20,947 bases of DNA from Candidatus Iainarchaeum sp. (GTDB lineage: Archaea; B1Sed10-29; WALL01; JAGHAM01). The DNA lies in NCBI GenBank assembly GCA_021161465.1, contig JAGHAM010000017.1:1-20947 (forward strand), written 5' to 3'. The position numbers were made by a program, and so were the translations under genes. Position 1 is the first letter of the stretch. The number at the start of each line of letters is the position of its first letter. Shown in pieces: positions 5,934-6,253 of this stretch. The notes beneath the pieces were generated by a model. The model had not been told where the DNA came from. It searched no databases and was given only the letters and a program-made list of their open reading frames with translations.

Positions 5934-5992
5934 TCGAAACACCCTCATCCATCTGTAGACAGCACAAGAATAAAAATATGCCGGCAACGGGA

Positions 5993-6120
5993 GTTCCAGC
6001 CCAACAAGCGGATTGCGTAGCAATCCTAGCAGGGTTAGAAGGGGCGCAGCCCCTATCCTGACAATCGGGATACGGACAGTACTGTATCCCTTGCAGGTTT
6101 AGAAAGGGTGCAACCCTTCT
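5993..6120 (-). other. 128-nt intron in the T loop of tRNA-Met (about 59/60)
   Basis: The T stem and first T-loop bases end at about 6121 and the last T-loop base and stem resume at 5992. The best splice model has central helix UUCA:UGGA, bulges AG^A and AC^U, and outer helix ACGGG:CCCGU. It gives a seven-base mature T loop UUCAAGU; a cut one base earlier gives UUCAACU. The inner helix is weak, so this is a relaxed BHB. The intron splits into two related halves of 64 nt, at 6057-6120 and 5993-6056. Confidence 0.85.
6027..6061 (-). repeat. 35-nt hairpin module, copy 2, in tRNA-Met T-loop intron
   Basis: The copy carries the hairpin AGGGGC / GCCCCT around loop GCA (6040-6054). It matches the copy at 6091-6125, exactly 64 nt away, at 27 of 35 positions. 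Four of the eight differences form two compensatory pairs (6041-6053 and 6045-6049). The other four are outside the stem. Confidence 0.85.
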
Positions 6121-6125
6121 CTTGA
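6091..6125 (-). repeat. 35-nt hairpin module, copy 1, spanning the T-loop exon-intron junction
   Basis: The hairpin AAGGGT / ACCCTT around loop GCA (6104-6118) corresponds base for base to 6040-6054, with G-C pairs replaced by A-T pairs (6105-6117, 6109-6113). The last five bases of this copy belong to the tRNA exon T loop, so the intron's second copy contains a look-alike of the splice junction. Confidence 0.85.
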
Positions 6126-6142
6126 ACCCGTGACCTCCAGAT

Positions 6143-6180
6143 GGCTTAGGCAGACACCGGTCAAATATCGCTGACCGCCC
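6143..6180 (-). other. 38-nt canonical intron (37/38) of tRNA-Met
   Basis: The intron lies directly after A37. The BHB motif is clear: outer helix CCAGA:UCUGG, central helix CUCA:UAAG with one C-A mismatch, bulges UA^G and CC^A, and inner helix GGC:GCC. A GGUCA:UGACC hairpin lies inside the intron. Confidence 0.9.
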
Positions 6181-6253
6181 TATGAGTCTGGCGCTCTAAC
6201 CAACTGAGCTATGCCGGCACGAAGTAGTTTTTTGTTCACTGGTTTTAATAAAC

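Follow-up and report, generated by a model that had tools for sequence, protein, structure and literature searches.

The contig analysed here, a window of 20,947 nucleotides from the assembly of an uncultured Candidatus Iainarchaeum species (our genome G000), carries on its reverse strand a tRNA-Met gene (5979..6218) with a CAT anticodon and an elongator-like body, interrupted by two introns. The gene was not called by ARAGORN, and with the Rfam tRNA model it scores 17 bits, below the gathering score of 29; it was recognized from its sequence together with its orthologues. The smaller intron (38 nt, 6143..6180) lies in the anticodon loop at position 37/38 and is placed there by the exon pieces that match on either side, at 6181-6218 and 6121-6142. 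A 29-nt intron occupies the same place in relative G001; the ends of the two are alike, and the middle of the one in our tRNA-Met is longer. The larger intron (128 nt, 5993..6120) interrupts the T loop at 59/60, one of the listed non-canonical positions of tRNA introns. Its boundaries are supported by the spliced product, since excision of 6120-5993 gives the T loop TTCAAGT, and the G005 and G007 orthologues, both of them free of a T-loop intron, have this very loop. As is characteristic of archaeal BHB tRNA introns, the exons match those of the orthologues and removal of the intron leaves a cloverleaf.

Of chief concern here is the internal organization of this T-loop intron. An earlier note, made from the letters alone, had divided its 128 nt into two halves of 64 nt, and the division, its coordinates and the order of hairpin, linker, hairpin and tail are all present in the sequence. 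Cut at 6057/6056, each half has, in order, a hairpin 1 whose loop is TGC, a linker CTAA..CCTGC, another hairpin and a tail that reads GATTGT or GCTTGT. Unit 1 (64 nt, 6057..6120) has hairpin 1 at 6119-6103 and the second stem-hairpin at 6097-6057; unit 2 (58 nt, 5999..6056) has its hairpins at 6054-6040 and 6034-6000. The likeness of the modules, given in the note as 27 matches in 35 positions, stands, with the count corrected to 26 of 35 in the ungapped register, where the best of 500 dinucleotide-shuffled pairs reached 21. With gaps allowed, the local score is 19, a value above those of all 2000 such pairs (maximum 18), so that the halves pass the shuffled-sequence check proposed for them, with a similarity above chance. 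The two compensatory pairs that had been noticed are also real and both lie in hairpin 1: where the loop is closed, U-A has become C-G, and within the stem A-U has become G-C.

Units of this kind recur throughout the genome, which was covered by searches and by short stretches around the matches. Used as a DNA query, the Met intron with its exons found 22 matching places, and those that were fetched are T-loop introns of other tRNAs, except for one anticodon-loop intron and one copy beside a tRNA. A covariance model built from 15 units, which themselves match it by construction, gave 33 matches in the genome at E<=1e-4 and 45 at E<=1. Eight of the 13 hairpin pairs have changed on both sides; the covariation score of 0.319 (shuffled mean 0.174) was equalled in none of 500 shuffles, and the signal collapses once the pairing partners are slid. 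A finder permitting an intron at 59/60 returned 22 T-loop introns, while some seven tRNAs have no large one; this list, in which three of the interrupted tRNAs are cut by a contig end, is partial and family-biased and is no census. Divided by hand, these introns contain from one to four units: one in the introns of 49-67 nt at C12 (two introns), C16, C30, C34, C35 and others; two in those of Met (128 nt), C20 (127 nt), C25 (181 nt) and C30:64883 (197 nt); three at C34 (264 nt) and C40:53048 (321 nt); and four at C40:2733 (318 nt). With single-unit introns of the family present in other tRNAs of the genome, the description of the Met intron as two homologous units in tandem is well supported. 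A tRNA-His carries one unit in its anticodon-loop intron (C40:31352-31408) and a related unit in its T-loop intron as well. Near-identical introns thus occupy non-orthologous tRNA genes, with copies at several tRNA positions, as in introns regarded as transposed. As read from the DNA, most of the tRNA genes identified in this genome are broken at one and the same position by this block, present singly or in rows of as many as four, and for that reason the block seems to have spread in the manner of a mobile element.

Other insertions were seen in and beside the tRNA genes of this genome. A complete unit lies at C21:8151-8208, directly past the 3' end of one tRNA and in the spacer before the next. 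The tRNA at C21:7955-8040 has a T-loop insertion of about 12-13 nt (TTCGA AGCTTCGGCTGA ATT) resembling a minimal T-loop intron, in which a stem carries a CTTCGG loop and the word TGAA is present. The T-loop introns at C21, C20, C35:69853, C28 and C30:89004 make up a second family, which has a hairpin of another type (AATAAGG..CCTTATAAGCCC); one of them apparently carries it twice, with TGGA retained near the inner junction.

The arrays at C34 (6540-6844) and C25 (1-250) have the same tRNA 3' half and exon, followed by different downstream flanks. One 83-nt unit accounts exactly for the difference between them (264 and 181 nt), the rest being the same, and the breakpoint falls at 19-nt direct repeats (TGCACCAGAAGGGTTGCAC) within hairpin 1. 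Since the difference is exact to the unit and lies between direct repeats, recombination seems to alter the arrays in whole-unit steps; in this draft genome each of the two loci stands at the end of a contig, so that the difference may instead be a strain or assembly variant.

Units at E<=1e-4 were found in six of the 19 genomes of the class, G000 included. Among 11 Met-anticodon tRNA genes from class relatives, ten are without a T-loop intron, and that of G012 has one of 46 nt and of another sequence. G001, the nearest relative and a member of the same family, has the similar anticodon-loop intron at Met and no T-loop intron there; short T-loop introns of one unit each do occur in other tRNAs of that genome. 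In G012, several tRNAs carry T-loop introns of a homogenised family of its own (GGGGTTGCACCCCCTCTACCCCTGCAGGCCACGTGAAGCGGCC...), with a hairpin 1 and a linker (GGGGTTGCACCCCCTCTACCCCTGCAGG) like those of the G000 units, and similar hairpins are found in anticodon-loop introns of G001, G002 and G011. As it is absent from ten of the 11 orthologues, including that of G001, the Met T-loop intron was most simply gained in the G000 lineage. Outside the class, matches to the unit model were weak and none of those opened is a T-loop intron; of the matches of a pattern scan, some of them bacterial, those in one Woesearchaeota and one Euryarchaeota genome are likewise not T-loop introns of tRNAs. A search of viral contigs found no exact unit and three loose matches, none of which resembles a tRNA interrupted in such a manner.

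That the units look alike by chance, or as a low-complexity artefact rich in G and C, is a prospect we regard as negligible: short hairpins with runs of G and C easily resemble one another, but the shuffles, the 33 model matches at E<=1e-4 and the covariation refute it. Conservation of the hairpins through compensatory change, and their recurrence across many genes, might also be expected of guide RNAs or another small RNA retained in tRNA introns for its function, and some archaeal tRNA-Trp introns do contain C/D guides. However, the Met intron has neither a C nor a D box, a pair of both occurs in none of 22 introns, and the Rfam search gave nothing above chance beyond a sub-threshold tRNA, so that no family matches the intron; moreover, the number of units varies from one to four and many tRNAs of the relatives have none. 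A role of this kind thus seems highly improbable. A local origin deserves longer consideration. The earlier note had favoured tandem duplication of one 64-nt intron, in which case an ancestral single-unit Met intron would have been duplicated in place and its halves would then have diverged independently. The halves are indeed clearly homologous and in register, and a change of unit number between direct repeats does occur at another tRNA, but units of other tRNAs resemble each half far more closely than its partner does. The best matches to unit 1 are the opening units of the arrays at C40:2733 (GlyC40_u1), C34 and C25 (56/63), and the best match to unit 2 is the one in the tRNA-His anticodon-loop intron (48/55); the two Met units match each other at 42/57, the partner ranking 13th and 11th of 30. 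In a maximum-likelihood tree of 22 units, a clade of the two Met units is rejected (AU p = 0.00119), while for the two units of C20 the same test does not reject a sister relation (p = 0.29), and so it does not reject every pair; the units are short and were cut by hand, giving 59 columns, and strong support is confined to 2 of 19 inner branches, which makes this a coarse tree of subfamilies. The single-unit intron that the note had suggested looking for in orthologous tRNA-Met genes is preserved in none of the 11 Met-anticodon genes recovered from class relatives. Comparison of the units leads us to reject a local tandem duplication as the source of the Met array, the claim covering a recent event more than an ancient one, since gene conversion after duplication could erase sisterhood or mimic its loss; duplication in place followed by independent divergence we rate as unlikely. 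The note's other suggestion, that one intron unit was set beside another, fits better with two units that belong to different subfamilies and are not sisters. Coming as they do from two subfamilies, the units most likely form an array because an extra one was joined from elsewhere in the genome; the hairpin-1 repeats that the units share may have been the site of an ectopic recombination or gene conversion that brought it in, or an intron may have been inserted beside another.

The splice site of the Met intron forms a regular 3-4-3 BHB. On the exon strand of the central helix stands TTCA (6123..6126; tRNA 54-57), followed by the AGA bulge (A6122 G6121 ^ A6120), and on the intron strand TGGA (5995..5998), followed by the ACT bulge (A5994 C5993 ^ T5992); the outer helix is the T stem, whose 5' strand ACGGG (6127..6131) pairs with the 3' strand CCCGT (5987..5991). 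In the transcript, the T stem (49-53/61-65), the 4-bp TTCA/TGGA helix and the 3-nt bulges would form one BHB, which an alpha-type EndA would cut at AG^A and AC^T; RtcB would then ligate the exons, and the array would leave as a single 128-nt piece. With the units lying inside the BHB, an array should be excised whole whatever the number of units it contains. In 20 of the 22 family introns, the 3' cut is preceded at 2-3 nt by a word that can pair with TTCR; among shuffled introns the mean is 0.8 and the highest count 5. On this reading, a second (3') bulge of 4 nt is required in about half of the T-loop introns, and a strict alpha4-type EndA might refuse it. The genome encodes both enzymes associated with BHB introns: RtcB, and one EndA of the alpha4 kind (170 aa; C16, L212:1474-1986), which aligns nearly end to end with that of Methanocaldococcus jannaschii (1A79), with a single-residue gap and no loop insertion. 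Left to fold freely, the Met intron favours pairing of hairpin 1 with hairpin 1 across the units.

The alternative that the two units are tandem introns with splice sites of their own, removed stepwise at an internal junction TCAGG^AT as the earlier note had thought possible, draws on archaeal tRNAs in which one intron leaves before the second BHB forms (tRNAscan-SE 2.0, PMC8450103). A 119-nt array at C30, moreover, retains TGGA near its internal junction and could be spliced differently from Met. The TTCA-pairing words of the Met intron, however, are confined to sites 6 and 11 nt away from its 3' end, and there is no such word where the two units meet. The resemblance of TCAGG^AT to the exon junction TCAAG^AG is the weakest part of the note, since the internal CAGG is the 3' strand of stem 2 and is paired with CCTG. 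At most of their internal junctions, the arrays have GYAGG|AAGA, with no TGRA strand such as true 3' sites possess. As the internal junction has no pairing partner, stepwise splicing is quite unlikely, and single outer excision of the 128 nt is the likely course. We consider it highly probable that the Met intron is an archaeal BHB tRNA intron, excised whole, whose body is a two-copy array of a mobile or converting two-hairpin module.

The module family appears to be homogenised, as a mobile or a converting family would be, and occupies 59/60 in most of the tRNA genes found, in one to four copies each. Its spread would fit ectopic recombination or gene conversion between copies, given the shared exon flank (GGTTCAAA...TCCC), the homogenisation within the genome and the indel bounded by repeats; re-insertion of units at the level of RNA is also possible. 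No coding element accompanies the units in the stretches that were read around them. More speculatively, and with rather low confidence, the module might be autonomous, a mobile RNA unit directed to the T loop at 59/60 and to the ends of its own resident copies, possibly by reverse splicing with EndA and RtcB. Nested arrays would then build up in the tRNA introns, and this in a lineage with an EndA that lacks the loops to which such expansion is attributed.

The closest precedent for the unit family is the transposition of tRNA introns in the Thermoproteales, where very similar introns move among tRNAs (Fujishima et al. 2010, MBE 27:2233, as it is presented in PMC4090602, PMC4033280 and PMC10714607). 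That transposition was itself inferred, and its mechanism is not known (PMC4090602). G000 differs in belonging to a small-genome archaeal class outside that order and in having most of its copies at one position, 59/60; it also has arrays of one to four repeated modules in its introns, and none are described for the Thermoproteales in the accounts of them given in those three papers. In the Asgard archaea Atabeyarchaeia and Freyarchaeia (PMC11291895), nearly all tRNA genes are reported to be interrupted, often at non-canonical positions and repeatedly, much as in G000; there, the many introns are reported from differing positions, whereas G000 has one homologous modular family in tandem. The ordered removal of closely spaced introns (PMC8450103) likewise involves more than one intron-like segment in a tRNA, but each of those introns has its own BHB once the first is gone, and the internal junction of the Met intron has none. 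The tRNA-Thr of Caldiarchaeum (PMC3293823) is similar in showing recent, locus-specific gain of a tRNA intron with signs of recombination; it differs in having at the locus a 1.8-kb element with a predicted recombinase, as against the units of G000 with no coding element in the stretches read. A search of the literature, with most subscription papers outside its reach, gave no report of repeated intron-module arrays. What seems new here is the modular arrays; the movement of similar introns among archaeal tRNAs was known already.

Non-canonical introns are reported to go together with an EndA bearing a Crenarchaea- or ARMAN-specific loop (PMC12397907, PMC4090602), and such loop insertions have been linked to broad specificity (PMC12397907). 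G000 breaks with this trend, being full of non-canonical introns and having an EndA without such an insertion. With its states of one to four units, a unit-exact indel between repeats and empty orthologous sites, this family is one in which the gain, growth and homogenisation of introns could be traced step by step. The tRNA-Met described here was missed by both ARAGORN and the Rfam tRNA model, and genomes of this kind would therefore look poor in tRNAs.
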